Below, in pieces: positions 19,975-57,100 of a stretch of DNA of 64,000 nucleotides. Below the pieces are notes generated by a model that was not told where the DNA came from, did not search any database, and was given only the letters and a program-made list of their open reading frames with translations. The stretch lies in contig JANQNE010000011.1 in the NCBI GenBank assembly GCA_028279725.1, forward strand, positions 89,872 through 153,871, in the 5' to 3' direction. Within the stretch, counting starts at the first letter, position 1, and each line of letters begins with the position of its first letter. Source of the stretch: Candidatus Nanoarchaeia archaeon. GTDB lineage: Archaea; Nanobdellota; Nanobdellia; Woesearchaeales; JANQNE01. Both the position numbers and the translations under genes were made by a program.

Positions 19975-20367
19975 ATGGTATCTGAAAAACTAAAGAATAT
20001 TTTGTTAATAAATATAATAAATTCAATTATAGCCTTTCCTTTTTTACTTAGTTACTATTTGAAGGCCCATGGAAGCCCTTCTGGTTTTGGTATGATTGAA
20101 GTTGGAGCAATGGGTGTTTTTTTAATTGGACCTTTAGCTCTTATTTCCTCAATAATTAGTACAGTTGTATTAAAAGAAAAATCACCTTTAATCATAATTA
20201 AATCTGTTTTGTTATTGATATTTGTCACTTATTTATTTACAGCCTTATTGTTAGTTAAAGGTGTTGATTTAATAATAACTTTCGTTACAATTTTTGTTTT
20301 TATTGTATTAATTTCAGCGGTTGGTTACGTTTTATCAATCATAGTGCAGAAACTAATTAAAAAATGA
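19975..20367 (+). CDS. Four-helix membrane protein
   Basis: About 130 residues from ATG 19975 with four hydrophobic stretches (ILLINIINSIIAFPFLLSYY, IEVGAMGVFLIGPLALISSII, IIIKSVLLLIFVTYLFTALLLV, LIITFVTIFVFIVLISAVGY). The in-frame GTG at 19960 overlaps the upstream gene. It starts 5 bases after the hydrolase gene and overlaps the next one by ATGA, so it belongs to the same unit. Family not recognised. Confidence 0.7.
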   Translation: MVSEKLKNILLINIINSIIAFPFLLSYYLKAHGSPSGFGMIEVGAMGVFLIGPLALISSIISTVVLKEKSPLIIIKSVLLLIFVTYLFTALLLVKGVDLIITFVTIFVFIVLISAVGYVLSIIVQKLIKK

Positions 20368-34138: not shown

Positions 34139-34795
34139 ATGAAAGGAAAACTACTAGTTGCTGGGCTATTGGCAGTTATAGGATACAATATATTGAGGTG
34201 TCCTGCCCCTAAAACAGCAAGTAATCATGAAAAGGATAGTGTTATGATCGAAAATTTTTGGAAAGTGATAAGAGAGGTCAATGATATACAATACGAAGAA
34301 CTTGAAAGAATAGTCATGACTGAGAGAGTGAGGATAGCAAGGGCGACAAGTTATCTTCAGGGATTTCTTAAGATCGAAGATAATGGAAGATATGATGATG
34401 TCACATGGGATGCTGTGAAAGCTTTTCAGACAAGGTATAATAAGCAGGGATTTAAGCCAAGGATAAAGGTTGATGGTATGTTTGGGCAGGAATTACTTAA
34501 TGCAATGGAAAATGTTTATAAAGCAAGAGGTTATAGGGATGATATAGTGATGGGATGGTTAGGAGATGCAGCTGCAAGAAACATTCCATTGCATAGATAT
34601 CCAAATCCTGCAAAAGATCCTTTAGAACATGGATATGATTCAAGGACAACTGAGATGTTCAGGTTTTTTGAAAATGAAAGAAAAAAGAGGGAAGATGGTA
34701 ATAAGAGCAGGTCTGATTCTGCTATCTCTGATATTATGTTCTACTATCACCTTGGGCTTGAACGTGATCATAACGGCAGACGAGTTAGCAGATAA
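34139..34795 (+). CDS. Exported protein with peptidoglycan-binding-like domain
   Basis: 218 residues with a short hydrophobic N-terminus (MKGKLLVAGLLAVIGYNILR, then Cys) that may be a signal or lipoprotein anchor. Residues about 72-125 (ATSYLQGFLKIEDNGRYDDVTWDAV...FQTRYN...VDGMFGQELLNAM) follow the PG_binding_1 pattern of a three-helix domain that in bacteria binds cell-wall glycan. Its 3' end (34674-34795) overlaps the signal peptide of the next gene in another frame. The ligand in an archaeon is unclear (pseudomurein, S-layer glycan or a partner's wall). Confidence 0.65.
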   Translation: MKGKLLVAGLLAVIGYNILRCPAPKTASNHEKDSVMIENFWKVIREVNDIQYEELERIVMTERVRIARATSYLQGFLKIEDNGRYDDVTWDAVKAFQTRYNKQGFKPRIKVDGMFGQELLNAMENVYKARGYRDDIVMGWLGDAAARNIPLHRYPNPAKDPLEHGYDSRTTEMFRFFENERKKREDGNKSRSDSAISDIMFYYHLGLERDHNGRRVSR

Positions 34796-36611
34796 AGCCA
34801 AGGTGTTTGCTGATTTTAGAGGAAGTGATGTTGTTAACTTAAGTTTTATCGATTCTAATTATGAAGAGGCTGAGAATAATGGTTATGTGGGGTATAATAA
34901 CCAGAACATAGAAGGATCTGAAAGTATTGTAGGTTATGACTATTCTCTTGCAAAGAAGATCATCAGTTTTTTGAGGGAGAATGATTATGATATGATAACC
35001 TTGTTTGGAGATGCTAAGTTAGTTCCTCCAAGCTATTATTTCTATAATGATATTGGCGTGAATGTCTATGATAAATGGATTCCAACTGATTTTTTCTATG
35101 CTAGTGCTGATTATGATCTTGATATGGAAGGTGTTGTAGGAAGGATTCCTGTGATGGATGAGAATGAAGCTGATAATTATCTTGATAAGGTTATGAATTG
35201 GGTTGAGAATGATAAGGCTGTTGTTGCTGGAGGAAAGATAACTGAGTCTGTTTTTTATGAAGGTGAGCTTGCTGCAGTTGATTCTTTGAATAAAGGTTTT
35301 TTTGGAGATGATGTTGAGAAGTTTTTTGAAAGTGACGGGAATTTTGAAAGTGATAAGGTTGAAGAGTATTTTTCAGGCGGTGCTGGAGTATTATATATTG
35401 TTGGGCATGGTGATGGAGACAGCATGATATTTGAGGATGGAGAGATCAATTCAAGAGATATAATGACTGATATTGCAAGTTATGATGTGCCTTTTGTTGT
35501 TTCTGTGCTTTGTAATAACGGAGCTTTTGATACAAGGCTTACTGGTCAGATATATTCAAAGTCTTTTGGTGAGAGTATAGTTGCTTCAAAAGCAGGCGGT
35601 GTTGCTTATCTTGGTGCTTCAAGATTCAGCTATGGTGTTCCTGAATATGATGATGGAGGGATAAAGAAGAGCTATATGACTGAGCTTATAGATGATATAT
35701 TGGATGAGACGGGAAGTTTGGGTGAAAGAGTTAAGAAAGGTGTAAAGAAATATGTTGAAAGCAATAATATGATAGATAAGTATAATCTTAGGACTGTGTT
35801 TGAGCTTGTTCTTTTAGGAGATCCTGCTATCAGTTTGAAGGAAAGGGGGAGTAGTGTTAGTGTGCCTGAGCTTGATGTTGAAGATATAAATGGAATTGTT
35901 AATGTGACCAGCTCTGAAGCTGTTGATTTTAAATTGATCAAAGATGATGAAGTTGTGAGTTCTGGAAAAGGTGATAGTTTTGGATTTAGTTATTCTGATG
36001 GTGTTTATCTTCTGAAAGCTGATAATGGGAAGGAGAAGAGATTATATTTTGGGCTGGAGGATGAAGAGGTTGAGACTGTTATCGTAAAAAAAGTATATGT
36101 TGAGGATGAAGGGGACAGAAAGAAGCATGATGTTGCCATAATAGATTCTGAGCTTAGCAATGGTTTTTTGAAGTGTGACAGGAAGACCAAGCTGGATATA
36201 AAGATAAGAAATGATGGAAGAAGTACTGAGAATGTTGTATTGGATGTCAAGAGTGAGGAATTAGATATCGAGAGCAGTAAAGAGATCAAGATCAGAGAGA
36301 GTGATGAATATGAAGTTAGCTATGCTCTTGATTTTCCTGAAGCTGAGGCAGGAGAATATTCTATCAATATTAGATTGTATGATGATTATGAAGTGTTTGA
36401 TAATGAGTATGTAAGCTTGGTTGTTGAAGACTGTGTTGTTAAGAATGATGATTCAGTTGAAGAAAATATGGTCGTTATTCCACCAAAGCCAAAAGTTGCT
36501 GAAAAGGACTGGTTATGGAATGCTGTGGGTATTGTTTTGATTGCAGGAGTAACTATGTTCTTGATAATGTTTAGTGTTATGAAGTTAGGAAAAACAAAAA
36601 GCTTTAAATAA
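34674..36611 (+). CDS. Membrane-anchored C25/gingipain-like (caspase-fold) protease
   Basis: 645 residues from ATG 34674 (ATG 34695 possible). A basic n-region and the core VIRAGLILLSLILCSTITLG form the signal. The middle 340 residues match the C25 peptidase fold: the catalytic pair appears as VGHGDGDS (His near residue 245) and SVLCNNGAFD (Cys near residue 280), followed by ESIVASKAGGVAYLGASRFSY, all typical of gingipain-like clan CD enzymes. Beta-sandwich regions follow and a single C-terminal helix (WLWNAVGIVLIAGVTMFLIM) anchors it. It probably cleaves after basic residues outside the cell (specificity not shown) and may process surface proteins or attack neighbours. Confidence 0.8.
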   Translation: MKEKRGKMVIRAGLILLSLILCSTITLGLNVIITADELADKAKVFADFRGSDVVNLSFIDSNYEEAENNGYVGYNNQNIEGSESIVGYDYSLAKKIISFLRENDYDMITLFGDAKLVPPSYYFYNDIGVNVYDKWIPTDFFYASADYDLDMEGVVGRIPVMDENEADNYLDKVMNWVENDKAVVAGGKITESVFYEGELAAVDSLNKGFFGDDVEKFFESDGNFESDKVEEYFSGGAGVLYIVGHGDGDSMIFEDGEINSRDIMTDIASYDVPFVVSVLCNNGAFDTRLTGQIYSKSFGESIVASKAGGVAYLGASRFSYGVPEYDDGGIKKSYMTELIDDILDETGSLGERVKKGVKKYVESNNMIDKYNLRTVFELVLLGDPAISLKERGSSVSVPELDVEDINGIVNVTSSEAVDFKLIKDDEVVSSGKGDSFGFSYSDGVYLLKADNGKEKRLYFGLEDEEVETVIVKKVYVEDEGDRKKHDVAIIDSELSNGFLKCDRKTKLDIKIRNDGRSTENVVLDVKSEELDIESSKEIKIRESDEYEVSYALDFPEAEAGEYSINIRLYDDYEVFDNEYVSLVVEDCVVKNDDSVEENMVVIPPKPKVAEKDWLWNAVGIVLIAGVTMFLIMFSVMKLGKTKSFK

Positions 36612-39633: not shown

Positions 39634-40704
39634 CATCTTTTGCCTGTAGCCATTTATCTTTATGAAAGGAGCAGCTCTTTTGATCGAGATTCCCAGAGCT
39701 GTGAAATCTCTTGTTTTTGTTATTGTGTTTGTTTGTCTTGTGCTTATTATGTTCTGTGCTGTTTTTGGACCTATGCTTGGTATTCGGATTAGTTCATAGT
39801 AAGATGCTTGGTTTATGTCAACTGCTGAATCGAAATATTCTCTTGCTAATGCAACTTTTGGATCTATTCTTGGAAGCATTCCATCGTCCATGATTCTTGT
39901 GAATTCGCTTACTTTGAAGTTATAGTTTCTCATTAGGAAGTCTGCGTTGTAAAGATGGTTTTGTCTTAGCAATGGTTCTTCTGGAGTGTTTTGCAAAGGA
40001 GTTCCTTTGACTGGCCTGAATCTTGAGTAGAAGACTCTTCTTAGATCAAAGTTCTTGTATTCCCAGTCTGCCATCTTTATGATGTCTTTGTCTGTTGAGA
40101 TGTTGTTTATTATCATCTGTGTGCTTTGTCCTGTCTTCATCTTTGATATCCATGACTGTCTTCTTAGGATGTCTGTCTTGTAGTCTTTGCATGTGCTTAG
40201 TTCTGACATTATGCTTTTGTTTGGTGTTTCTAGGTTGATGCTCATACGGGTTGATAGTTCTGATGCTTGTTTTATGAGTTCGTAAGAAGTTCCTGGCAGA
40301 ACTTTGAAATGGATGTATCCTTTGAATTTTTCTTTGTATCTTAGAAGCTTTACTGCTTCAAGCATCTTTTCTGTTATCTTGTCTGGGTTTGCTGCAATGC
40401 CTGAGCTTAGGAAAAGCCCTTCTACTTTTAGATTTTTTACTAAGTACATGAATATAGAAGAAAGTTCTTTTGGTGTGTATTCTGCTTTGTTCTTTGAGCT
40501 GTTTTTTGCGTTTGAGCAGTATTTGCAGTCAAAGGAGCATGAGTTGCTCATAAGTGTTTTGAATAGAATACAGTTTTTGTTTTCAGCTTTGGCGTGATAG
40601 ATACCTCCAAGGCTGTCTCTTACTTTTACTTCGCAACTCTTTGGTCCGCAGGTGTCGTATCTCCCACCGTCACCCAGAATCTTGGCTTTTTCGAAGATGT
40701 TCAT
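39613..40704 (-). CDS. Radical SAM protein with helix-hairpin-helix domain (DNA modification/repair type)
   Basis: 363 residues of the COG4277 / putative DNA modification-repair radical SAM family. KILGDGGRYDTCGPKSC opens the protein; CSFDCKYC is a canonical Cx3Cx2C motif; ISLETPNKSI-like and RVFYSRFRPVKGTPL segments lie in the barrel; residues about 300-363 (VDINQASYYELIRIPSIGPKTAQNIIS) form a helix-hairpin-helix DNA-binding domain. In bacteria the family often neighbours a uracil-DNA-glycosylase-like protein, not seen here. It overlaps the convergent tRNA enzyme by 21 bases and the recombinase by ATGA. The reaction is unknown. Confidence 0.85.
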   Translation of the reverse strand: MNIFEKAKILGDGGRYDTCGPKSCEVKVRDSLGGIYHAKAENKNCILFKTLMSNSCSFDCKYCSNAKNSSKNKAEYTPKELSSIFMYLVKNLKVEGLFLSSGIAANPDKITEKMLEAVKLLRYKEKFKGYIHFKVLPGTSYELIKQASELSTRMSINLETPNKSIMSELSTCKDYKTDILRRQSWISKMKTGQSTQMIINNISTDKDIIKMADWEYKNFDLRRVFYSRFRPVKGTPLQNTPEEPLLRQNHLYNADFLMRNYNFKVSEFTRIMDDGMLPRIDPKVALAREYFDSAVDINQASYYELIRIPSIGPKTAQNIISTRQTNTITKTRDFTALGISIKRAAPFIKINGYRQKMLSDFCS

Positions 40705-41531
40705 CTTAGACTATCCAACGGGCTTTTTATTGACAATAATCTTGGCATTGCTGTATGGACATAGATATTTGTTGTTTCTATCGAATTATGGCCAAGCATA
40801 GATTGTATTGTTGTAAGCGAACAATCATCTTCTACAAGATGTGTTGCAAAAGAATGTCTTAATGTGTGTGGGTGGATGTGTTTCTTTATACCAGCTTTTT
40901 TTGCAGCGTGTCTGATAATCTCCTGCACACTCCTTTGATGCATATGCCTTCCATTGTTTCCCTGAAAAAGCCATAGGCCTTCATTGCTATTGATATGTTC
41001 AACAAGATTGTCTTTTATAGAATCTGCAATTATGAAGGCTCTGTCCTTGTTTCCTTTGCCTTTTCTGACCCACCCGTAATTATTCTCTAACTCAAGATCA
41101 GTTATCTTAAGGTTCAAAAGTTCACTTACCCTGAGGCCTGCAGAATATAGTAAAGATATCATAAGTTTATGTTTTGGATTAGAGATTGAATTGATCAGTT
41201 TTAGTGTCTCTTCTTTTGTCAGGAAGATTGGCAAAGTTTTTGGTCTTCTGGAGAATTTGATGTTTATGAAGATGTTTTTTCCTAGAACATCCTGCATAAA
41301 GAATTTTAGAGCAGACATGTGGACATTTAATGTGCTTCCACATGCTTTCTTTTGTAGTAAGTAATCCAGATAATCTTTTATCTGTTTCTTTGTTATCTTT
41401 CTTGGACTTGTTTTGTATCTTCTGAAGAATTGATTTAGGCATTGACAATATGTTTTGATAGTCTTTTTGCTAAAACCTCTCCTTAAGCATTCTTTTTTTG
41501 TTAATTCGATCGGATCTATTTTAACCACCAA
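40701..41531 (-). CDS. Tyrosine recombinase, XerA-like
   Basis: 276 residues. An N-terminal SAM-like core-binding domain precedes the catalytic domain with Arg in SAGLRVSELLNL, Lys in GKGNKDRAF, HTLRHSFATHL (His-x-x-Arg), GHNSIETT and the nucleophile Tyr in TNIYVHT. The size matches archaeal XerA, which resolves chromosome dimers. No ATG is at hand; TTG 41531 or GTG 41528 lie about 22-25 bases after a TATA box (41553-41561), consistent with leaderless initiation. It is next to a cassette-like island, so a role in integrating cassettes should be weighed. Confidence 0.9.
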   Translation of the reverse strand: MVVKIDPIELTKKECLRRGFSKKTIKTYCQCLNQFFRRYKTSPRKITKKQIKDYLDYLLQKKACGSTLNVHMSALKFFMQDVLGKNIFINIKFSRRPKTLPIFLTKEETLKLINSISNPKHKLMISLLYSAGLRVSELLNLKITDLELENNYGWVRKGKGNKDRAFIIADSIKDNLVEHINSNEGLWLFQGNNGRHMHQRSVQEIIRHAAKKAGIKKHIHPHTLRHSFATHLVEDDCSLTTIQSMLGHNSIETTNIYVHTAMPRLLSIKSPLDSLR

Positions 41532-41970: not shown

Positions 41971-43722
41971 TTAAACTTTCTTCAAATCATGTTCAAATCC
42001 AATTCTAGATATGTGATTTGAAAATCTGATTAAAATATCTGATAAATAAGGGTCCTTTAATCTTCCTACTCTTTTCAACGGATAAGACACTGTATCATCT
42101 TCATGTAAGCCTTCTAAACTTTTATTCAAAAATATCTTTGGAATCTCATCCCTGTCATTAATTTCTTCATATTTTTCTTTGATTAACTTAATATGGTTTT
42201 CGAAGCCTAGAGAAGTATTCTTATCTAACTCGTAATTCTCATTCTTTGTAAATTTACATTCTCCAGATATGTTTAAAGAGCATAGATCTAAAGGTAATAA
42301 ATTAGAAGCAAACACTTCTCCAAAATCTATATAATAAGTTTCTTTTTCCCCCTTGAAATATTCTAATGGATAATATTTTCCGGTCTTAGAAAAATTTTCA
42401 AGGTGAAAACTTATTCTGTTTAATTCTTCTTTTTTAGTTTTTTTAAAATCTTCTTCATCGGAGATTTCAAAGATTTTTCCAAAACTTTTTCGAATTTCCC
42501 TCAACAAAAAATCCATACTAGAATTTTTTTTGACAATTTTAACTAAAGCAGCTTCACTAATCTTACGTTTATTTGTTCTCAACAAAATATCACATGGCTG
42601 AGCTAATAAAATATAATAATCATTATTATTTGAACAAAAAATATCTCCTGAAGCGATTGGCATATGGTTCTTATTGAGAAAATCAGCATCTTCGTATCTA
42701 TCATCTTTTAAGATATCTTTTATATCTTTTCGATGTTCTGGGAAGTATCTAATTTCAATTTTGTTGATATCTTTAAGTATCTTTGTGATTTTCTTAATAT
42801 CTTTATCTTTTTTTATTTCTTTCATTAAATCTTCGTTATGAAACAGCCTATATAACCTAACGAATGTTTCTTCTTCTAAGACTCCCTCTCTAGAAGAAGA
42901 TTGAAAAATTATTTGGTCGAAGTGATTAATATCTAAATTCTTTATTTTTTCCAAAGAAGAATTATTAGTCTTATCAATTATCTCAGAATACTTTCTAGTT
43001 AGAATATGTGCATAAAAATTTAAGATAACTAGTTTAATTCCATGTAGAAATTGATCTATCTCTTGAGTTCGCCATTTGCCAAGAGGATAAATGTTATACT
43101 TTTTTTTAAATTCATTGTCCCATTCGTTCCATTCTTCCTTACAACAATGGAGGGTATGTGTAAACAAGCCACAGAAAATTAGACCATCAAATTTCTTTTC
43201 TTCGATAATTTCATCTATATAATTTCTACTATTTTTCCCTTTTCCTAATTCCTTATCAAATAAAATTAAAAGCTTGTTATTAGCATTTACTTTTTTAATG
43301 ATATCCTTCTTTTGAGATTCCCAATCTTCTGGACTGAGTTTATGGAATGTTACCTTATCTTTAAAGACTTCAGAAAGAACAACAAATGACGAGAGATCCC
43401 TTTCTAAATCTTCTTGAGGCTCGTCACCTAAAAGTTTGTTCAATTTATGGTAATATGTGTTCTTTTCTTCTGGAGAAAAGCCTTCAAATTTTTCTTTTAG
43501 CTTTTTCTCTAATACTGCTTTATTTGGAAAAGATTCTTTAAAAATTCCCTTCAGACTCTCATTCTTAGAGATGTCATAAACGGCTTTTGCCTTTCCCAAA
43601 AAGTTTTCTGAAGTTGCTACTACAGACAAATCATTATCAACCAAAACTACTTCCTTGATATTAACAGGATTGAATAATCCCAGAATTCTATTGTCCTTTT
43701 GAAGAGATACTAACTCAGCCAT
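41971..43722 (-). CDS. Unrecognised protein of the GHKL/methyltransferase cassette, possible receiver-like segment
   Basis: 583 residues, last gene of the cassette, overlapping the ATPase gene by 8 bases. The opening segment (VNIKEVVLVDNDLSVVATSE) and a later segment (KLLILFDKELGKGKNSRNYI, then FDGLIFCGLFTHT) resemble the strand-acid-strand layout of response-regulator receivers, with Asp of LFDKEL as a conceivable phosphoacceptor; the similarity is weak. Residues about 365-395 carry MPIASGDIFCSNNNDYYILL then AQPCDILLR, which looks like a conserved motif of unknown function. No nuclease, helicase or membrane segment is recognised. It is probably the partner or effector of the ATPase. Confidence 0.7.
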   Translation of the reverse strand: MAELVSLQKDNRILGLFNPVNIKEVVLVDNDLSVVATSENFLGKAKAVYDISKNESLKGIFKESFPNKAVLEKKLKEKFEGFSPEEKNTYYHKLNKLLGDEPQEDLERDLSSFVVLSEVFKDKVTFHKLSPEDWESQKKDIIKKVNANNKLLILFDKELGKGKNSRNYIDEIIEEKKFDGLIFCGLFTHTLHCCKEEWNEWDNEFKKKYNIYPLGKWRTQEIDQFLHGIKLVILNFYAHILTRKYSEIIDKTNNSSLEKIKNLDINHFDQIIFQSSSREGVLEEETFVRLYRLFHNEDLMKEIKKDKDIKKITKILKDINKIEIRYFPEHRKDIKDILKDDRYEDADFLNKNHMPIASGDIFCSNNNDYYILLAQPCDILLRTNKRKISEAALVKIVKKNSSMDFLLREIRKSFGKIFEISDEEDFKKTKKEELNRISFHLENFSKTGKYYPLEYFKGEKETYYIDFGEVFASNLLPLDLCSLNISGECKFTKNENYELDKNTSLGFENHIKLIKEKYEEINDRDEIPKIFLNKSLEGLHEDDTVSYPLKRVGRLKDPYLSDILIRFSNHISRIGFEHDLKKV

Positions 43723-46219
43723 TTAAGATTCTCCCGAAATCAATTTCAAATTTGTACTTTCGTCCATACTTATTTCTCCCATCTAATAATTCAATAGAAC
43801 AATTCTCAGCATCTAAGAATTGGGAGATTATGAAAAGTCCCAGTCCCCGACCTTTACTCTTACAAGTTATAAATGGTTCAAATAGACTATTTTCAACTGA
43901 AGGGTCAATACCTTTTCCATTATCCCATATCCTTAAGTAAGGACGATCAATTTCAACCATTATCTCTGCGTTATTTATTGACTTTGTTTTCAAATTTTCA
44001 ATAAGCCAATATTCTGAATTTAAAACAATGTTATCAATAATTTGGAATAGTTTTCCACGATTTATTTTTATAGAAAATATTTCAATTGGATTTAGTTTGA
44101 TATTGATATTTTTTTGTGCGAATCTAATGTTATAATAATTCAATTCTTCATGCCAAAATTTTTCTAAGTTGATTATGTCTTTTTGTTCCCTTACATACTT
44201 TAAAGAAGGAGTGATATGTGTTAGTTGCTTCCTAATGGAATTTAATGTACTTTTAACATGTTCAACATAAACAAAGATATCAGAATTCTTAGGGTATTTC
44301 TTCTTAAATTTTGTACTCGCCAATCTTGTTTTATCATAAAGTCTATCTATAATGTTATTTATTTCATGAATCAAAGCTTCAACGGTAATACCTAAACTAG
44401 AAGTTTCTAGTAACATAGGTATTTGTTCTCTCAAATGTTCAATCTCAGTTTTCACAAATTCAGCTTTTTTTGAAATAGTCTGACTTTCTTTAGTTACAGT
44501 ATCTTCCTGCTTCTTAAGCTCATCTCTGATTGAAAAAAGCCTGGTAATAATTCCTCTGGGTGGCAATTCAACGTTAATTAACTCTTTTGCAATATTATTG
44601 ACTTTTCCACTAAGTTCTTTAGTGTTATCTACCACTAGTTTACCATCCCACCCTTTAGTTGAACCTTTGCTCTTGAAGTTAATTATATCTTTTAAGGCAC
44701 TATCTGGAGTAACTTTATCTTTTGCTGATTCTGATACTTCATCACCGATTTTGACTCTCTTAAATTTTGACAGAGATTCTTTTCTAATGAAAGCGTGTAG
44801 TTCTTCTGTATAATCAACAAATTGCTGTAATATTTTGTAAAAATTTAGGTAATAAGACGTTTCGATAAAACCTTCTCTGTTTGTAGTTTCCTTCAAGCAA
44901 CTATTATCTTTTGCTGATATTGAGATATATCCTAAAGTATTGCTAGGTCTTAAACCATACCAAGATTTCCCAGAAGTTTGTTGTTTACTTAAGTTCAACC
45001 AATCATGAGGAACTTTAATTCCGAATCCATCTCTAAAAACTTTAATTCCAGATAATACTTTCATAGTGTCTCTAAACGCTTTTCTTGAATCAAAGATGTT
45101 ATGTGAATCATTAATTTCATTATAAGTTCTACCTAAATCAAAGTAGTAAATATTTCCACTAAATGCTCCAGGAGAAGCAAGCTTTTCATTCACAATAGAT
45201 AATTTATCCATATCCTTTAACTTGTATTCTTTATTAACTTCTAAATAATAATTAGAGTCATCAGACTTAAGAATGTTGTATGTTTTTGATTTTTTTTCTT
45301 TAACTAAAAATTCTCTAAACTCTTTTCCATCATCTTTACTCAGATATTTTTTAAAGAAACTTATTGCCTCTTGATCTCTAGAAGATTTTAGAAAATCAAA
45401 TTTAATTTTTCCTTTAATTGTAAAAACATCTTTAGAATCAAATTCTAAATTGTACTTAATATCTGCTATGTCTAAGATATTTTCTGTTATTTCAAACAAG
45501 TCAATATTATCACCATTAATTGTAAGAGTGAATATGAAATCTGATTGCTCTTTGTATGGAGAAACTAATGAGTAAATTTTATTGATTAAGTCATTTTTAC
45601 TATTTTCCAAATAATCAAGGTCATTTAATCCAGAAATGATTAAATATGTTCCTTTTGGTTTTATCCTAGGAATTATTTCATACTTGGGCTCGACACTTGA
45701 AAGTAGCACGTCATCTTTAAAATCATTCCAACTAAATCCTACATGAAAACATTTTTCCTTCGTGTTTTTCGGGAAAGTATAGATATCTACATTTAATCCT
45801 AACCTTTGTGCTCCCAACCGACCCAATCCTTTATCTCCAAGAGGCGTTCTCCCTTCATCAGTGGTTTGTCCTTTTTTTTTCATTTGTTCTTTAGGAGAAG
45901 CAGAAATAGTCAGAAATCCATTTTGTATTTCTTTTTCAGTCATTCCAAAACCATCGTCTTCCACTATTATTACACCTTTTGATTTTGGATAAAAAGAATT
46001 AAATTCGGTTAATTCTGAATGATTTTTTAAAACTTCAGACGCGGTTTTCCTCGTCTCAATGAATAAACTGGAGTAGCTTGCATCGGCATCATAACTATTT
46101 TTAATCAACTCCAATAATGCCTGCCCATCATCAGTTATCAATTCTTGTCCAAGTCTAAATACAACTGAGGAGTTTATCTCTATTGAAAAATTAGTGTCAG
46201 CTTTAGATTTTTTTGCCAT
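43715..46219 (-). CDS. Protein with two GHKL ATPase domains (Hsp90/MORC-like and histidine-kinase-like)
   Basis: 834 residues from ATG 46219. The N-terminal domain has N-box QALLELIKNSYDADA (34-47), G1 EDDGFGMTEKEI (about 87-98) and G2 GDKGLGRLGAQRLG (about 120-133), as in Hsp90/MORC/MutL-type ATPases. A helical middle region follows. The C-terminal domain is histidine-kinase-like: an H-box-like EALIHEINNIIDRL (His near 616), N-box QIIDNIVLNSEYWL, G1 RIWDNGKGID, F-box LFEPFIT and G2 GRGLGLFIISQFL (about 790). Both nucleotide sites look intact. It is coupled by overlap to both neighbours. It may sense an invader or DNA state and signal by phosphotransfer or conformational change. Confidence 0.88.
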   Translation of the reverse strand: MAKKSKADTNFSIEINSSVVFRLGQELITDDGQALLELIKNSYDADASYSSLFIETRKTASEVLKNHSELTEFNSFYPKSKGVIIVEDDGFGMTEKEIQNGFLTISASPKEQMKKKGQTTDEGRTPLGDKGLGRLGAQRLGLNVDIYTFPKNTKEKCFHVGFSWNDFKDDVLLSSVEPKYEIIPRIKPKGTYLIISGLNDLDYLENSKNDLINKIYSLVSPYKEQSDFIFTLTINGDNIDLFEITENILDIADIKYNLEFDSKDVFTIKGKIKFDFLKSSRDQEAISFFKKYLSKDDGKEFREFLVKEKKSKTYNILKSDDSNYYLEVNKEYKLKDMDKLSIVNEKLASPGAFSGNIYYFDLGRTYNEINDSHNIFDSRKAFRDTMKVLSGIKVFRDGFGIKVPHDWLNLSKQQTSGKSWYGLRPSNTLGYISISAKDNSCLKETTNREGFIETSYYLNFYKILQQFVDYTEELHAFIRKESLSKFKRVKIGDEVSESAKDKVTPDSALKDIINFKSKGSTKGWDGKLVVDNTKELSGKVNNIAKELINVELPPRGIITRLFSIRDELKKQEDTVTKESQTISKKAEFVKTEIEHLREQIPMLLETSSLGITVEALIHEINNIIDRLYDKTRLASTKFKKKYPKNSDIFVYVEHVKSTLNSIRKQLTHITPSLKYVREQKDIINLEKFWHEELNYYNIRFAQKNINIKLNPIEIFSIKINRGKLFQIIDNIVLNSEYWLIENLKTKSINNAEIMVEIDRPYLRIWDNGKGIDPSVENSLFEPFITCKSKGRGLGLFIISQFLDAENCSIELLDGRNKYGRKYKFEIDFGRILNG

Positions 46220-46220
46220 C

Positions 46221-47576
46221 TTAAACAACTTTCCTCATAATTAGAATCTCTTCTTTTGTCATAGTTTTAGTGTTTTTATTTCTAGAAGCCATACGTTTAT
46301 TACAAATATCTCTATCCAATTTTAATACTAATTTTGAACCGTAATGCTCTAAAATTTCTTGCAAAATTTTGTCTAACGGAATAGATATTCCCCCTACATT
46401 TCTATTTCCCACAGTCCAAACCATGTAGCCATCTTTTCGTAAAACTGATAAACAGTTTTTTAGACTATTTCTTAAATCTTCATAAAAATTGATAACCTTA
46501 TAGGTTTTATCCTTATGTTCAACACTAAGATCTGCAATAATTCTCTTTAATGTAGGAGATATATCAAAAAGCTCTTTGCAAACTTTTCTATTAATATCTT
46601 TAGATGTTGAACCACCTAAACTAAGTTTGTCAATGTATGTAGTAATATTTAGAACGTCTTGAGGAATTTTGTTATCAATATCTTTTGTAGGAATAAATTG
46701 AAGCGGTAGATAAGAAAATTGCCCATAAGTAACAGTAGTATGATTGTCTCCATAAGGGGGGGAAGAGATTATCAAATCAATTTTTTTACCATTCATACAT
46801 GGAATTTTTTTAGCGGAATCGCCCAAATGTAATTTTATTTGGTGTTTATATGACCCTTTACTCAACTCATTAGCATCATTTAAATCAGATTTGTGTAAGC
46901 AAAAATGTTCATAATTATTTCGAAGGATTGATTTAAATTTTCCAATCACATCTATTTCTCTACTATCAATATCCTCCTTAGATCTAATATGTAGCTTAAA
47001 CGTAGATGTCCTAGAGTTACTTGATTGTCTTATAGTCTCTCCAAATGCAACCCAAAAAAATCTTCTTGCCCATAGCATATTTTCATCCAGAATTGCTCTT
47101 CTAATTCTTGATAAACTCTGTAATACTTCTTTTGTAAACCATTTGTCTCTATTTACAAAGGATACATCAATAGATAATTTATCATCAGAATCTATTTTGC
47201 TATTCAAACTATCAATTTTATTTTTAATTGCTTTTTCATAGAACGGACCTTTCTTAGCTTTACATAATAGAATTGCTAGTGGATTAATGTCAAGCCCTTG
47301 AAAAGATAGCCCATGATACATACATTCAGCCATAACCGTGCCTGAACCAACAAATGGATCAAGTACAGTTTTGATGTTACTTACATTTTTTACAATGCAG
47401 CTTATTAATTCCGATTGCATTGCTGGAACCATCATTGCAGGATAATTAAAATAAACATGACTTTTTTGTCGTTTTGTATCTTCTTTAAATGACCAATAAT
47501 CTGAATCTTTAGCAATTAGTTCATTGTAAATATTCATATCAATATTATCTTGAACAGAATCAGTCTGGGTGCTCAT
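46221..47576 (-). CDS. DNA methyltransferase (N4-cytosine/N6-adenine class)
   Basis: 451 residues from ATG 47576, whose ATGA overlaps the stop of the HTH gene. Motif I DPFVGSGTVMAECMYHG (about 71-87) binds SAM, followed by QGLDINPLA; motif IV is SSPPYGDNHTT (about 269-279), the catalytic signature of amino-methyltransferases, with SPPY often seen in N4-cytosine enzymes. About 190 residues between them may hold target recognition. No restriction nuclease is recognised beside it, so in the cassette it probably marks self DNA or regulates. Confidence 0.9.
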   Translation of the reverse strand: MSTQTDSVQDNIDMNIYNELIAKDSDYWSFKEDTKRQKSHVYFNYPAMMVPAMQSELISCIVKNVSNIKTVLDPFVGSGTVMAECMYHGLSFQGLDINPLAILLCKAKKGPFYEKAIKNKIDSLNSKIDSDDKLSIDVSFVNRDKWFTKEVLQSLSRIRRAILDENMLWARRFFWVAFGETIRQSSNSRTSTFKLHIRSKEDIDSREIDVIGKFKSILRNNYEHFCLHKSDLNDANELSKGSYKHQIKLHLGDSAKKIPCMNGKKIDLIISSPPYGDNHTTVTYGQFSYLPLQFIPTKDIDNKIPQDVLNITTYIDKLSLGGSTSKDINRKVCKELFDISPTLKRIIADLSVEHKDKTYKVINFYEDLRNSLKNCLSVLRKDGYMVWTVGNRNVGGISIPLDKILQEILEHYGSKLVLKLDRDICNKRMASRNKNTKTMTKEEILIMRKVV

Positions 47577-47848
47577 TTTATATCGCCCCATCTTTGCTGA
47601 ATGTTGGCTAGAAACCTTAATCCTTCATCAGTTATTGAAATTTTAAAAGAATCTTTTTTAGATGGACTATTTTCTTTTCCAATTTTCTCTATTTTGATAA
47701 ATCCATATTTTTCTAGTGCTATACAGTTATTCTTTATTGTAACAAAACTAGTCCCAATTAATCTAGTAAGCTGAAAAAAAGAATTTATAGATTCTTTTCT
47801 TAGCTCTTTCAATATTTTAAATCTTATTTCATCGCTGCTACGTAACAT
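47573..47848 (-). CDS. Winged-helix regulator of the cassette
   Basis: 91 residues: DEIRFKILKELRKESINSFF, QLTRLIGTSFVTIKNNCIAL (helix-turn-helix with recognition helix) and YGFIKIEKIGKENS...KISITDEGLRFL (wing), an archaeal MarR/ArsR-like winged helix of minimal size. It is first in the operon. The half-site CAGTATAG abuts its ATG at 47849-47856, so it or the divergent ribbon-helix-helix protein probably represses the shared promoter. Confidence 0.8.
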   Translation of the reverse strand: MLRSSDEIRFKILKELRKESINSFFQLTRLIGTSFVTIKNNCIALEKYGFIKIEKIGKENSPSKKDSFKISITDEGLRFLANIQQRWGDIK

Positions 47849-47901
47849 CAGTATAGATTTAGAGAAACATTTATATATAAGTTCAGTATAGTTCTATACT
47901 G
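47849..47901. promoter_or_regulatory. Bidirectional promoter with CAGTATAG operator sites
   Basis: One symmetric TATA element (TTTATATATAAG, 47870-47881) lies 22 bases from the minus-strand ATG (47848) and 27 bases from the plus-strand ATG (47909), so it can serve both leaderless genes. CAGTATAG-TT-CTATACTG (47884-47901) is a perfect 18-base palindrome on the plus-strand side, and a third CAGTATAG half-site lies at 47849-47856 on the other. Confidence 0.75.
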
Positions 47902-47908
47902 TTGAACC

Positions 47909-48112
47909 ATGACCTACGCTTTAGTAATTCCACCACAATATCTAGGAGATTTGGTTAAGATTAGAGAAAAAACCAAGACAAGTATAAGAAAACAAATATT
48001 ACAAAGCATAGAAAAACACATTGCTGAATCTAAGAAAACAAAAAATACTTCTAAATATTCTTTTTCAGAAAAAGAACCAAAAACAGCCCTCTCTCGTCCT
48101 ACGGACAAATAG
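47909..48112 (+). CDS. Small ribbon-helix-helix-type protein divergent from the cassette operon
   Basis: 67 residues. Residues 1-40 (MTYALVIPPQYLGDLVKIRE, then KTKTSIRKQILQSIEKHIAE) fit a short beta strand plus two helices, as in ribbon-helix-helix repressors. The last 15 residues (EPKTALSRPTDK end) are coded by the inverted-repeat boundary (from 48085), so the gene runs into the repeat. It is a probable autoregulator acting at the 47884-47901 palindrome. Confidence 0.65.
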   Translation: MTYALVIPPQYLGDLVKIREKTKTSIRKQILQSIEKHIAESKKTKNTSKYSFSEKEPKTALSRPTDK

Positions 48113-51114: not shown

Positions 51115-54100
51115 TTAATCATTATGCGGATCAGACTGTCCTGTGATGATTATCGATCCGCTGCAGGATCCACCGACAGCTATAGCAGGAATTCCCAGAC
51201 CATAATAAGTTGTTTTTTTAGGTGTTGGATCAGTTTCAGTTCCTGGAACAGAATCCAGATCAAGCTCTACATTAGACTCTGACAGGTCAGTGCCTGAGCC
51301 ATAAGTAAAAGGATTGCCTCCATATTCTAAAAAAGTAACTTCTATCGAGCTTGTATTGCAAGAAAGATTTGTTCCTGAAAGCAGGACATCTAACCCAGAA
51401 TTTCCCAGATTTGTAACATTGATCTCCTGATTTAGATTTGTCGTATTTGCTCCAAGAGCGATCTCTCCAAAGTTTACGATAGATGGATCAATAGTAAATG
51501 CAGATAATGTATTTAACTCTGTAGTTGCTGACCCATTAGTTCCAGTTCCCTGGGAATCCTGGGGAGAGATCAAAAATGTCCAGTTAGTAAAAGAGCTGTT
51601 AGACCCTGCATCTGTAGGTATTGCATAATGTGAAACATTGAATGTGCAATTATAACTGATCGTATTTCCTGTGCCATCACTGTTATCTGTGCAGGCTGCA
51701 GTATAATGATCGCTGTTATTATCATCAGCATCAGCCCCAGATGTAGTCAGAAACAGATATCCTGTTGCATTAGAAATATCAGCAAATCCATTAAGATCTG
51801 TGATTGTAGCACTTCCGATAACTGTCGTGTTAGTTCCAGAAGACAAGGTGATATCACTTCCACTATTTATGCTGACATCAGAAGGGTCAGGGACATCATT
51901 TTGGACGGCAAAAGTTGTTGTCTCTGAACTATTGATATTTCCTGTGGTGTCATTAGCTATAATACGAACGGTGTAGGTTCCGATAAGACCTGGAGCAGCA
52001 TAAGTATTGTCAAAGTTGTCTCCTCCGGAATTTGTCAATGTAATCTGGCTGATGCTTCCATTTGGCAGAGTTATATTTGCAATAACTGCAGAAACACCTA
52101 TCAGATCAGTTATATTTGCATCTATCTCAAAACTGGCTGTTGTGTTTAGACTGCTTCCTGGAGTTATGTTAAGAGCAGTAACAGCTGGAGCAGTCGTATC
52201 TGTGAATCCTAAAGTAAAATAATCTCCGTTTGTAAAATTAATGTCTGTAAAGCTTACAGTGTTTCCTGTCTTTGTTCCAGTACTCTCTATCGTTGCATTA
52301 TCAAATGTTCCGTCATCATCAATAAGCAAGACAAAACTATCATAATCTGCAATAGTGAGGTTATCTGATATATCAAATGCAACTGTTACAAGGCCAACAC
52401 TGTCTCCATCGCCATTACCTCCATCATCTTTGTCAGCTCTCCAGGATTGGTTCATCCTGCTGTAATTGACAGGAGCGTCTGTTGAGATGCTTATTCCGCC
52501 ATTGTTATGTGCAACTGTCAAAGAATCGTTCAGATCAAGAGATGTGGGAGCTGAAATCGTTACAAAAGAAATTACTGCTGAAGATATATCAACTGTAGCG
52601 CTGCAGTTTCCAGGAAACTGTCCAATGCCATTGATATCATTGTTGTGCGGAGCAGGAAAGCCGTAATTGTCTTCAACTCCAAAAAAATCCCTTCCATACT
52701 TATCTCCAAGATAGATATCAACCATCTCAAGCTCGCAGGTGGTCAGCACCCTGTCATAAATTATTATCTCAGCAATTTTTGAGTTATGGTGCTGGTTTCC
52801 AGCCCTATTTTGGTTTATCCTATAATGCTCAAAAACCCTTCCTTCAGTAGTGTTTCCGGAATTTGCCTGCTGCCCTTCATTATACAGCACAACATTATTG
52901 CCATCATGTGTAACAGAATATAGCTTGATCTCATTACTAAAGTTTTCAAAATTAAATTTAGTTGATGCCCCATATCTAAAAGCATTGCCGCTATCTGTGT
53001 AATCTATCTGAAAATGATCTACATGTGCTGGTTCGCCATTTGAAAAAAATGAATCATATAATGAAGGGCTTGTGTCTCTACTTTGAATAACTGTAAATAT
53101 AGTAAAATCACTTGTGTATTGTGATGCGAGTTCATGTCTTAATGTGTCTCCAGCAGATTTGCTAAAATTAAGTACAGAAAGCCCGTTAAACTGATCGGTA
53201 ATATATTCAGGAGCTCCTTTACCGGAAACATTGGTAGCATTATGACCATAGCTTGATTTGTCCTGCCAGCATAATACTTCCTGGTTTTCAGATGTTACAG
53301 CTGTGCTGCAGCTCTCATCAGTATAAAGTGTTGAATTGTCTGTTGCATCATACCAGACTCTTAAGTTGCCTATATCTGATGGATCTTTTAATTCTGCTGT
53401 AAAGACAGAAGATACTGAACTGTTAATATTTGCAGCAGTGTCATTTGCAATAATAGTAATATTATACTTTCCTGCAAGAACAGGTATAGTGAAATTTGCA
53501 CTATATATATCTCCTGCAATATTTGCCAATGTAACCTGCTGTATCGTATTATTTGGAAACGTAATATTGGCGATAACAGTGTCCAGATGAGTATCTGTAA
53601 CAGTAGCATTAATCTGCAAAACATGGCTAGTATTAAATGTCTGTCCTGAAGGATAAAGGCCTGTAACACCCGGATTAGTCGTGTCAAGAGTGATATTTCT
53701 ACTATCTGTCGTATTGCTATTGCCTGCTAAGTCCATGACTGTTACATTATAATAATATGCTGCATCACTTAATCCGGTAAAGTTGATGCTTCTTTGTGCA
53801 GTTGTGTATGTTGTCTCATTTAGCAACCCAAATGTTGAGTTAAATAATCTGAATGTAATATTGGCTTCATTTGTTTCAGTGATACTAACATTAATATAAA
53901 CAAAGTTCTGGCTTATGATAGTGTTGTTATCCTGCGTTCCTGTGCCATAAGAGATCAATGGAGGTGTTGTATCGATTGTTACAGTCCTGAGCTCTGTCTG
54001 ATTCTTTTGTCCGCTTGCTGCAACTGCATAACTGATAAATGTGTGATCTCCATCTGCAAGATCTGAGAAGTTATTCACATATTGATTTGCTGAGGCATTA

Positions 54101-57100
54101 TATAGAAAAAGTATCTCAGCAGCAGAAAGCGGACGGTTAAATATGAGCATCTCATCTATCGATCCGTTAAAATATTCGCTTGAACCATCAGGATTGACTC
54201 CGATCCTCCCATTATCGCTGGAAACACCAGACATAGAGTCTGCTATAGATGCATTCAATACACCATCTACATAAATATTATATGTTGAGCCATTATATGT
54301 TGCAACATAGTGATACCATGTCTGTGTTGATATCGCTCTGATATCTGTTGTTGTTCCTGTTCCACTGCTGTCTCTATAAAAAAATTGCAGCTGATCTGTC
54401 TGACCAAGAGTAAGTGATACAGCAGATAATGTGCTTGAATTCCTGAAGGTTATGATCCTATTAGCAAAATTACCACTGCCAATACTGTCTGCATTTAACC
54501 ATACACTGATGCTCCATGAATCCTTATCTGGAATAAATATATCAGATGCAGGCAGACTGATGTAGTCTCCTGATCCATCAAGATGCACAGCTTTTCCAAA
54601 CTTACCTGTATCATTAATCAGAGCATTGCCTGTTAATGACCCATTATTTCCGTCTGAAATATCCACTGGATCTCCACTTCCATTAGTATCGTCCATCCTC
54701 ATCCAAAAAACAAGCTCATTGTCAAAATCAGTGAAAGTGTAATGATCAGGCTCGCTTGAATTAGAAGTTACATTAATGATGAAGTTATTTTGAGGATGTA
54801 AAGATCCGTTGCTTAATGTTGGGTCAACAAAAGATATCTGAGGAGCAGGCTCATCCAGCCCTAATGTAAAATAATTTCCATTAGAGAAATTTACGCTCGT
54901 AAATGTTATGATATTTCCACTTACAGAATAACCAGTGGTGTGTGCTGCTGAGTCGCTAAAATTTGTATCATTATCAATCAGTAATGCAAGTGTTCCAGCT
55001 ATTATAATATCAGTAGTTGAGAGATCAAAAGAGATTGAGACATTTCCCGGAGAGTTATCAACATCAACTCTCCAGCTTTGGCTAATCCTCCTGGTATAAT
55101 TCCCAGGAACATCAGATATCAGAGAAAATCCCAGATTATCATGTGCAAAAGTTAAAGAATCGTTTAAGTCAAGTGAACCTGGATCAGAGATCGTAGCTAT
55201 CGATGACTGCGCTGAAGTAACCTCAGTACTGACACTGCAGTTTCCCAGATATTCACTGATCCCATTTATATTATTATCATGAGGGGAAGAGAACCCATAA
55301 CCTTCTGAGATCCCGCTAAAGTCCTTTCCATATTTCCCTCCAAGATAATTATTGATAATATCAATCTGGCAAGGAGTAAGTATCCTGTCATACACTATTA
55401 TCTCAGAAATATCCCCATCATAATATCCATTATCACCATCTCTTCCGATAAACATCTGTGTCTGCGCAGCAGTTGCATGAGACTCGTCAGTAAATCTTGT
55501 CTTTAGATCACCATCAAAATATATCTGAGAGCCATTAACAGGCCCGGAATTTGTCCCTCCGCTCACATTTCCATCGTAAACTGCAGTAAGCAAAAAAACA
55601 GAATCAACAGTGCCTGCTCCGTCAATAGAAAGTCCTGAAGATGCACCTCCCAAACTGATAAGGCCATCATCGACTCCATCTGTTCCCAGTCCTGCATTAT
55701 ATGAAAAGAGACTGTAATAAAACCTGTCCCAAGATCCATCATCATTCCCCCATATTGCCTGTCCTTGATCTGAAGTATCATTTGTCCTTGGACGATATAC
55801 TGCAAAAAGCGTTATATCTTCTGTTGTATTTGCACGGATATCGATCCCTGTCTCATAGACTGTCTCATTGCTTTTGTTAAATCTGAGTGTAGTAGAGCTG
55901 CTTATCTTTTCCTGAGCTGCTGATCTGTACTTTGCTGCACCTTTTCCAGATACAACAGTTGCATTGCTGCCTCCTGCTTTGTTCTCCCAGCAGAATACTT
56001 CCTGATTATCAGCAGTAACAGGATTGGAGCAGGAACTGTCTGTGAAAAGAGATGTATTGTCTGCTCCGTCATACCATGCCAGGATGCTATTAATATCATT
56101 TGGATCTCCTAAACTCACTAAAAATACAGCACTCTCAGTATTATTTAAATTTCCTGCTGAATCATTTACAGATACAGAAATATTATAGATTCCTGCAAGA
56201 GAAGGAATCGTAAAATTAGCGCTGTAAAGATTTCCTGATACCTGTACTAAGGTCAACTGTGTTACTGTTGAATTGGGATAAGTGATGTTAGCAAGAGCAG
56301 TGTCAACACTATTATCGATAATTGTTGCATTTATAGTTATTGCTTCGCTTGTGTTATAAGTCTGATCAGAAGGGGAGATGTCTGTTACAGAAGGAATCTG
56401 GTCAAGTATAATAGTCCTTGCTGCTGTTGTATTGCACAGATTATTCTGATCACAGGCTGTTGCATTATAATGATAAGTTCCTTCTGCAACTCCTGTAAAA
56501 TTAATTAAGCTAATAGAAGCAAGCACTGTTTTGTTAATTAAACTGAATGTAGAATTATAAAGCCTGTAAGTCAGATTTGAAAAATGATCATCTGTCACAC
56601 TAACATTTACTTCTATATAATCCCGCACTAATGATGTTCCGTTTGGCTGTGTTGGGCTCGCATAGGAAATTGTAGGGGAATCAGTATCAAGCACTGCCAG
56701 AGTAAAAAAATCATCTCCGTTAAAATCAACATCCTGAAAGGTAACTGTGCTAGAATCGCTATAATTTGCCACAATCCCGGAAACAGAGGTGAAATTAATG
56801 TTTGTGTTTTTTATCAGGAACAGGTGGCTTTTATTTGTGGAACTTAAGTTCATCGAGGAAATATTCATAATCAAGTCTATAGTTCCAACATCACCTGTCT
56901 GATCTAATCTCCAGGTCCTTTGCAGCATATCTTTACCAGCTGGTGTATTTGTCGATGTTGTAGTTAATGGCCCATTATCATGTCCCCAGACTAAAAATTC
57001 CCTGTCTCCAATACCTGTAGCATTGCTGATGTCAACTATGTTTCCAGAGTGAATTGATTTTGACCTTGTCTGGTTAAGTGATGATGTATCATCTCTTCCG

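Follow-up and report, generated by a model that had tools for sequence, protein, structure and literature searches.

What does a DNA methyltransferase gene do in a tight archaeal operon with a gene for a protein carrying two GHKL ATPase domains and with another for a 583-residue partner to which no Pfam, PADLOC-DB or NCBIfam family could be assigned at useful significance? The question is raised by a minus-strand run of four open reading frames (ORFs), spanning 47848 to 41971 and accompanied by a small divergent ORF, in the ORF list of a 64,000-nucleotide stretch of contig JANQNE010000011.1 from a Candidatus Nanoarchaeia archaeon (hereafter the window). An earlier note, made from the sequence alone, had proposed an undescribed defence or epigenetic cassette composed of a winged-helix protein, the methyltransferase, the dual-GHKL ATPase and the partner. 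With a probability of roughly 0.55, we read it as a methylation-guarded two-component restriction or abortive-infection cassette, in which the dual-GHKL protein would be a kinase reporting unmodified DNA and the partner a receiver protein acting as a phospho-switched effector.

Linkage of the genes, pairing of receiver with kinase and a swap of effectors between families are each supported by gene neighbourhoods and alignments. Tblastn searches of plasmids found the GHKL and partner genes side by side on Rhizobium etli plasmid pRetMIM1f and on a Hymenobacter monticola plasmid, both with the same methyltransferase family upstream of the GHKL gene; the order methyltransferase-GHKL-partner is thereby common to an archaeon and to plasmids of Alphaproteobacteria and Bacteroidota. 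All four genes lie in unchanged order in another genome from the taxonomic order of the window (locus L015), and a methyltransferase gene is present at seven of the eight loci of the window's partner branch (upstream in six, downstream in L017). The linkage of the four genes, put forward for checking in the earlier note, held in unrelated hosts for the methyltransferase, GHKL and partner genes; the winged-helix gene was found at the equivalent place solely in L015, the closest archaeal locus (82% identical), and the divergent 67-residue ORF, not even there, is not part of the conserved core. The partner itself is rare in the genome samples searched: it was present in its own genome only among 99 genomes of the window's order (own included), in two of 371 genomes of a phylum sample (own included) and in one of 289 genomes of an alphaproteobacterial class sample. 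A three-row partner alignment gave 28 pattern matches and no relative on viral contigs, phage records yielded a single weak GHKL match, and a scan of genome contigs with a single sequence returned two matches, both confined to the C-terminal kinase region and from genomes with no partner.

A query built from the GHKL alignment alone recovered 72 viral-contig loci, and 81 loci (named, genome and viral) were tabulated in all, leaving out viral L080 and L087 with no ORF over the score limit. In 74 of the 81, the GHKL gene is followed on the same strand, within 200 bases, by a gene of at least 150 amino acids (aa); in 38, a same-strand gene of at least 250 aa precedes it by no more than 200 bases. 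Linkage by blastp sorted the downstream genes into families F1 (19 members including the window), F2 (17), F3 (13), F4 (13) and F5 (5), with smaller groups of four (C5 methyltransferases), two and one. Pfam tallies over 37 of the 38 upstream genes (L060 left out) plus the downstream methyltransferase of L017 gave Eco57I 13, N6_Mtase 12, N6_N4_Mtase 12 and C5 6, with overlap between classes. A methyltransferase motif census over three genes upstream and four downstream marked 56 of 85 loci, a crude figure that may count partner genes and carries no weight. Two plasmid loci were noted besides: on a Chlorohelix plasmid (L007:2407-18310), a dual-GHKL kinase and long partner lie amid cysteine desulfurase, DUF4007, PAPS-reductase and FtsK-like genes, a set which we take to resemble DNA phosphorothioation systems, and on a Burkholderia aenigmatica plasmid (L012:5619-10788), a methyltransferase-type gene, a GHKL gene, a response regulator and a metallo-beta-lactamase fold protein stand in a row.

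Judged by its domains and motifs, the 837-residue protein is histidine-kinase-like, with a MORC-like ATPase in front, an H-box and a kinase ATPase behind. Pfam recognised HATPase_c_3 in its N-terminal part and HATPase_c near its C-terminus (Table 1), and the two complete ATP sites described in the earlier note were confirmed by both domain matches and by residues E40, N44, D91, G93, G95, G131, G134 and G136 of the N-terminal ATPase, invariant in 92 of 92 homologues (92 of the 96 tabulated GHKL proteins were aligned; L014, L079, L089 and L169, all under 650 aa, were left out). Kinase N-box and G-box residues are kept in 79 to 88 of the 92. Between the two ATPase domains of the window kinase, H621 is followed by E622; histidine occupies this H-box column in 82 of 92 homologues and the next column holds E in 74 and D in 10, as counted from the alignment, since a strict H-box/N-box regular expression matched 35 of 92 only. 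A second histidine seen in the first alignment, H671, was not conserved outside the window branch.

The 583-residue partner is most likely, from conserved residues and the profiles of its relatives, the response regulator of this dual-GHKL kinase. V25, V28, D29, D31, D156, T190 and K216 were invariant in the first three partner sequences, and D29, D156 and K216 in eight; the receiver-like half carries a long insertion after its first strand. When compared with a profile of 17 canonical receivers, relatives of the window partner matched at 4.3e-14 (F1c), 1.9e-12 (F3), 1.6e-7 (F4), 9.7e-6 (F2), 3e-5 (F1b) and 1.3e-4 (F5). The window branch joins the other F1 members through iteration of hidden Markov models and through its C-terminal half (F1b, 8e-7), and one F1 member, from Campylobacter, is annotated 'response regulator' in its record. 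An AlphaFold2 model of the F2 homologue L021 (predicted local distance difference test score, pLDDT, 79) showed a receiver fold, with D12, D59 and K129 at the acidic, phosphoacceptor and lysine positions, and matched receivers at Z of about 10, the 50 rows of this second aligner covering model residues 1-162. A profile search of solved structures gave weak rows, nearly all of them receivers (best E 0.0085 and 0.034). The earlier guess that the protein is an 'effector or receiver' is thus backed by conservation of receiver residues and by the profile matches of relatives.

Kinase and receiver also go together across loci. Every one of the 68 homologues whose partner belongs to F1-F5 or F7 keeps the H-box histidine; of the 14 other histidine-bearing loci, an F4 partner is present in three (L116-L118) and a Response_reg_2 partner in two (L119, L134), and two more reach the contig edge downstream (L031, L034). 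At the ten histidine-less loci, comparison of the neighbouring genes with profiles of the receiver families and of canonical receivers gave no match at E<=0.01; in eight, a methyltransferase gene takes the downstream place (C5-type in L078, L082-L084 and L173; window-like in L127, L133 and L137). Several observations pull the other way. Among the 82 loci that keep the histidine, five (L025, L042, L067, L072, L090) lack an adjacent downstream gene on the same strand although the contig continues, and in two more (L107, L130) that gene is unclassified; moreover, most histidine-less proteins have lost the whole kinase half, so that the pattern is one of co-occurring modules, not of single residues. 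D156 aligned in 67 of 67 downstream genes and D29 in at least 90% (67 of 74 genes were aligned; L030, L043, L051, L060, L083, L084 and the 154-aa L085 were left out), but two of these 67 are C5 methyltransferases, and Pfam Response_reg matched five of the 67, the window partner not among them. The window branch itself met canonical receivers at E=0.056 only, in register at D156, and the AlphaFold2 model of the window partner was poor (13 sequences, pLDDT 56), with no useful fold match, so that relatives serve to assign its domains. Full-length profiles link the window branch weakly to F1c (2.6e-4), F2 (0.0028), F3 (0.015), F4 (0.018) and F5 (0.11), which makes the route from the window partner to the F2 model indirect. 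Lastly, alphaproteobacterial genome locus L088 (G492) has kinase and partner with no methyltransferase on its 11-kb contig. Foldseek rows of the window-partner model (poxvirus resolvases, clamp loaders and others, all at E>=0.19) were treated as noise.

What, then, would the receiver switch? The C-terminal domain of the window partner bears the motif GDIF...YYILLAQPCD...R followed by a closing KRVGRL helix. A strand followed by P/A-x-C-D or a near variant is common to F1, F2 and Response_reg_2 proteins, the closing R...R.G helix is also common to F1b and F2, and the F1 and F2 profiles of this C-terminal part match each other at 1.1e-7. In the L021 model this region is made of successive strands and ends in a helix. 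MazF/MoxT-type toxins took nine of the 50 best PDB rows in a Foldseek search with this model (probability 0.93-0.99, target-normalised template modelling score 0.46-0.56, alignment lengths of 160-177 columns), and PemK-like proteins three of 50 rows in a viral structure library; PemK/MazF had been guessed from the sequence before the fold search was made. The matches are placed in the C-terminal region because 160-177 columns fit that region with its insertion and because a receiver is unlike a MazF barrel. The homologue's model suggests a MazF/PemK-like barrel for the partner's C-terminal domain. The case is weakened by MazF E-values of only 0.0086-0.031 in rows given with no aligned range, by the second aligner, whose 50 rows listed receivers only and speak neither for nor against a MazF-like part, and by sequence profiles: hhalign against three and then 11 toxins gave no significant link to MazF/PemK (E 0.037-0.21 for the C-terminal alignments with the 11), and a search with PF02452 gave the window partner no row at E<=10. 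The known catalytic residues of MazF/PemK differ from the conserved C-D and R of the partner; the likeness lies in the predicted barrel fold of the homologue.

Comparison of the downstream families offered a second line of evidence on the output. F3 partners are short (209-228 aa), and a third gene (same strand, at least 150 aa, less than 120 bases after the partner) follows in 12 of 13 F3, nine of 13 F4 and four of five F5 loci, compared with four of 19 in F1 and three of 17 in F2. Pooled, the figures are 25 of 31 for F3-F5 versus seven of 36 for F1-F2 (Fisher p = 5.6e-7, a value that overstates independence and to that extent counts against the reading, because the loci are related and near-duplicates are included). 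The set of third genes used comprised 34 of 36, without those of L017 and L060. All 12 third genes of F3 are nuclease-type, either HNH (8) or metallo-beta-lactamase (4); in F1-F2, L044 has HNH_2 and no domain was recognised in L009 and L018, and no family was found for the F4 third genes of L045, L057, L058 and L063 or the F5 third gene of L059 when looked at singly. We read this swap pattern as modular output, in which minimal receivers act on a separate nuclease and long receivers carry a domain of their own.

The same comparison bears on the rather doubtful alternative that restriction is carried out by the GHKL protein itself, on the model of the BbrUII/HgiDII family, with the partner only regulating or loading it. 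The resemblance is real at the N-terminus, where GHKL residues 85-245 match NF050001 (BbrUII/HgiDII restriction enzyme) at 6.5e-16, and in the neighbourhood, as both pair an N-terminal GHKL ATPase with a DNA methyltransferase. Window-type methyltransferases also adjoin single-GHKL proteins with no receiver gene, their genes preceding in L093 and L094 (37% identity to the query) and following in L127, L133 and L137, and this pairing ties the cassette to BbrUII/HgiDII-like restriction. However, the NF050001 match reaches 58 bits against a cut-off of 550 and is limited to the interval given, Pfam and further family searches found no nuclease domain in the 837-aa protein, the single-GHKL proteins of L093 and L094 stand apart in having no receiver gene, and the minimal-receiver sister systems bring a separate nuclease-type gene. 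Type II restriction-modification in general shares the methyltransferase, and in those searches no nuclease domain, restriction endonuclease included, was recognised in any cassette protein beyond the partial NF050001 match. M.HgiDII and M.BbrUII are described as 5-methylcytosine (m5C) enzymes in the part of the source covered (PMC5867850). As an observation in its own right, L093:8001-11085, L094:7008-10543, L127, L133 and L137 resemble BbrUII/HgiDII-type restriction on viral contigs.

The closest published counterpart is bacterial, and the label 'undescribed' in the earlier note has to be given up, as the same general kind was published for bacteria in 2021. The portions of Bellieny-Rabelo et al. 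2021 (PMC8011034) covered here describe proteins with HATPase_c_3, a histidine-kinase-like core and HATPase_c, linked to a receiver and a methyltransferase; they propose the HEF_HK/Response_reg_2 pair as a two-component system tied to restriction-modification and related to paraMORCs, and report 91.6% linkage over 644 regions, with HNH_2 and Vsr neighbours, from a search limited to Bacteria. No output domain or functional experiment appears in those portions. The window cassette shares the N-terminal HATPase_c_3, C-terminal HATPase_c, H-box and linked methyltransferase. The gene adjacent to its kinase has invariant receiver residues and, by way of its relatives, is a probable receiver gene. 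Profiles of the window-branch and Response_reg_2-locus kinases align over most of their length (5.9e-46), and the GD...CD motif of the partner C-terminus aligns at 1.5e-5 over 36 columns. On the other side, neither the HEF_HK domain (PF19191) in the window kinase nor the Response_reg_2 domain (PF19192) in the window partner gave a row at E<=10, a limit at which HMMER filters drop most rows above 0.1, whereas PF19191 was found in control kinases L100 (1.8e-7, over the cut-off) and L119 (1.5e-4; 22.6 bits, cut-off 24.1) and PF19192 matched control partners L100, L119 and L134; the close viral relative L016 gave PF19191 at 0.043 at its H-box. The window kinase is also shorter (837 aa versus 974-993 aa in five control loci), its host is an archaeon and its methyltransferase is of N6/N4 type. 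Judging from these profiles, the window cassette is best called a divergent branch of the HEF_HK/Response_reg_2 kind, homologous to it though both Pfam models fail.

In open-licence PubMed Central, judged by titles and abstract openings of the records listed, the combination was described in PMC8011034 only and nothing was seen in the part of PMC12839542 covered; within that literature, which does not exclude subscription papers or unlisted records, there was no record of archaeal occurrence, of the fused-versus-separate effector pattern or of a MazF-like output. MORC/paraMORC ATPases (Iyer et al. 2008, PMC2292703; VcSduA, PMC12137116) share the idea of a GHKL ATPase switch in DNA defence, and the paraMORC3-type Shedu VcSduA has been shown to be anti-phage (PMC12137116); they differ in being fused or paired with nucleases and helicases, with no phosphorelay in the portions of these texts covered (PMC2292703, PMC12137116). 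The GHKL and 583-aa proteins had no PADLOC-DB match, and the methyltransferase matched chiefly generic MTase_II models (best 4.2e-116), in agreement with the earlier statement that the set fits none of BREX, Pgl or DISARM. PADLOC includes signature proteins of all three. Histidine-kinase signalling in phage defence is known from Detocs, which is not known to include a methyltransferase.

The methyltransferase is intact, as the earlier note had it: the DP..GS.T (S-adenosylmethionine, SAM) and SPPY motifs are invariant in six members of its family. The 91-aa protein gave winged-helix matches that were weak and below Pfam cut-offs; it is probably an autoregulator of the operon. Between the window and L015 the methyltransferase and winged-helix proteins are 85% and 82% identical (window 46221-47848 versus L015:9930-11557), the GHKL protein 45% and the partner 32%, a contrast which may reflect either module exchange by recombination or very unequal constraint, identity at four-fold sites being similar in the methyltransferase (35 of 79) and GHKL (30 of 71) genes. 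A breakpoint inside the GHKL gene was considered and rejected, since other pairs, too, are more alike over the first 160 residues of this protein.

A winged-helix gene heading the operon would also suit ordinary signalling, that is, a two-component pair controlling the neighbouring orphan methyltransferase as an epigenetic switch and not as defence. The host genome has receivers at seven places and HATPase_c at six (one being this kinase), from which it appears that phosphorelays are used in this host, and Bellieny-Rabelo et al. 2021 suggest, in the portions covered, signalling that controls restriction-modification (PMC8011034). We nevertheless hold such a switch to be unlikely: Pfam and further family searches recognised no DNA-binding output domain in the partner, many relatives are found in plasmids or viral contigs, together with methyltransferases of several classes, and the third genes of F3 are nuclease-type. 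The same mobile contexts, together with the MazF-like domain suggested by the homologue's model, fit a selfish addiction module in which kinase and partner would kill a cell that has lost the methyltransferase and would play no part against phage. This is the least probable of the alternatives; it predicts toxicity of kinase and partner alone, and such a module is compatible with defence.

How the methylation-guarded two-component cassette would work, from the sensing of unmodified DNA through phosphotransfer and the chemistry of the effector to defence, is inferred. The methyltransferase would mark the host's own DNA, and the MORC/MutL-like N-terminal half of the kinase may bind DNA or a DNA-bound complex and detect unmodified target sites. 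On detection, the kinase would autophosphorylate at H621 through its C-terminal GHKL domain and pass the phosphate to D156 of the partner, as residue conservation and co-occurrence of the two proteins suggest. Phosphorylation would then release the C-terminal MazF/PemK-like effector domain, a step to which the swap pattern and the homologue's model point, and this domain would fill the role of the separate HNH or metallo-beta-lactamase proteins of the sister systems; the winged-helix gene probably controls operon dosage. A more specific version is put forward tentatively: restriction with no classical restriction enzyme, in which unmodified DNA would be signalled by a MORC-histidine-kinase through a His-Asp relay to a receiver-fused MazF/PemK-like toxin, with an RNA-cleaving or growth-arresting response, and in which receiver-only versions would signal to separate HNH or metallo-beta-lactamase nucleases.

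The features of the locus are collected in Table 1. The four overlapping minus-strand genes and their junctions, as described in the earlier note, are borne out by the ORF list. An alternative ATG three codons after the TTG of the GHKL gene would leave a one-base gap to the methyltransferase gene, and the ATG at codon 6 of the latter gives an ATGA overlap with the winged-helix gene; the L015 methyltransferase ORF call begins at the equivalent of this codon. The 67-aa protein has no Pfam family, and its former label of ribbon-helix-helix protein found no Pfam support and no counterpart in L015. Overall, the earlier interpretation stood in its core linkage, in the absence of a matching PADLOC system and in the receiver or effector guess, and failed on novelty and, outside L015, on the linkage of the winged-helix gene.

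Table 1. Features of the cassette, in window coordinates
Feature	Position	Strand	Size or residues	Remarks
Partner	41971..43722	-	583 aa	Predicted response regulator with C-terminal effector-like domain; ORF list and homologues
Partner, receiver-like half	43075..43665	-	residues ~20-216	D29/D31 acidic, D156 predicted phosphoacceptor, T190, K216
Partner, C-terminal domain	41998..42660	-	residues ~355-575	MazF/PemK-like fold proposed by homology
Dual-GHKL histidine-kinase-like protein	43715..46228	-	837 aa	TTG start
N-terminal MORC/MutL-like GHKL ATPase	45701..46123	-	residues 36-176	Pfam HATPase_c_3 (PF13589), 1.6e-14
H621, predicted phosphorylated histidine (H-box)	44366..44368	-		Alignment of 92 homologues
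C-terminal kinase-type GHKL	43754..44053	-	residues 726-825	Pfam HATPase_c (PF02518), 1.7e-12
DNA methyltransferase, N6-adenine or N4-cytosine type	46221..47591	-	456 aa	Likely start 47576; Pfam N6_N4_Mtase (PF01555), 6.3e-14
Winged-helix protein	47573..47848	-	91 aa	Weak helix-turn-helix (HTH) matches; counterpart in L015
Divergent ORF	47909..48112	+	67 aa	Outside conserved core

The host is archaeal by its ribosomal protein S27e, the model for which scores above its cut-off in four archaeal controls. No further defence family was found in the flanking genes tested with Pfam and PADLOC-DB. Downstream of the cassette lies a gene for a XerA-type tyrosine recombinase of the archaeal kind (window 40701-41531; 236.6 bits versus a cut-off of 220), which may be a host gene or a trace of mobility. 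On the far flank, a 2312-aa ORF (51115-58053) has a signal-like start and repeated extracellular-looking segments, and elsewhere in the window 16289-19969, 20364-25067 and 34629-36611 encode large surface-type proteins (FG-GAP, CARDB; PKD, fn3) and a Peptidase_C25 protein.

If the reading is right, self-marking by DNA methylation, sensing by a MORC-type ATPase and a two-component phosphorelay, which are normally separate, would be joined in one system, and the same logic would be shown in an archaeon. MORC-like ATPases in restriction would gain a readable output, the phosphate on the partner, and the role of the HEF_HK/Response_reg_2 elements would become directly testable. The pattern of fused versus separate effectors provides, for this family, a concrete list of candidate output domains.

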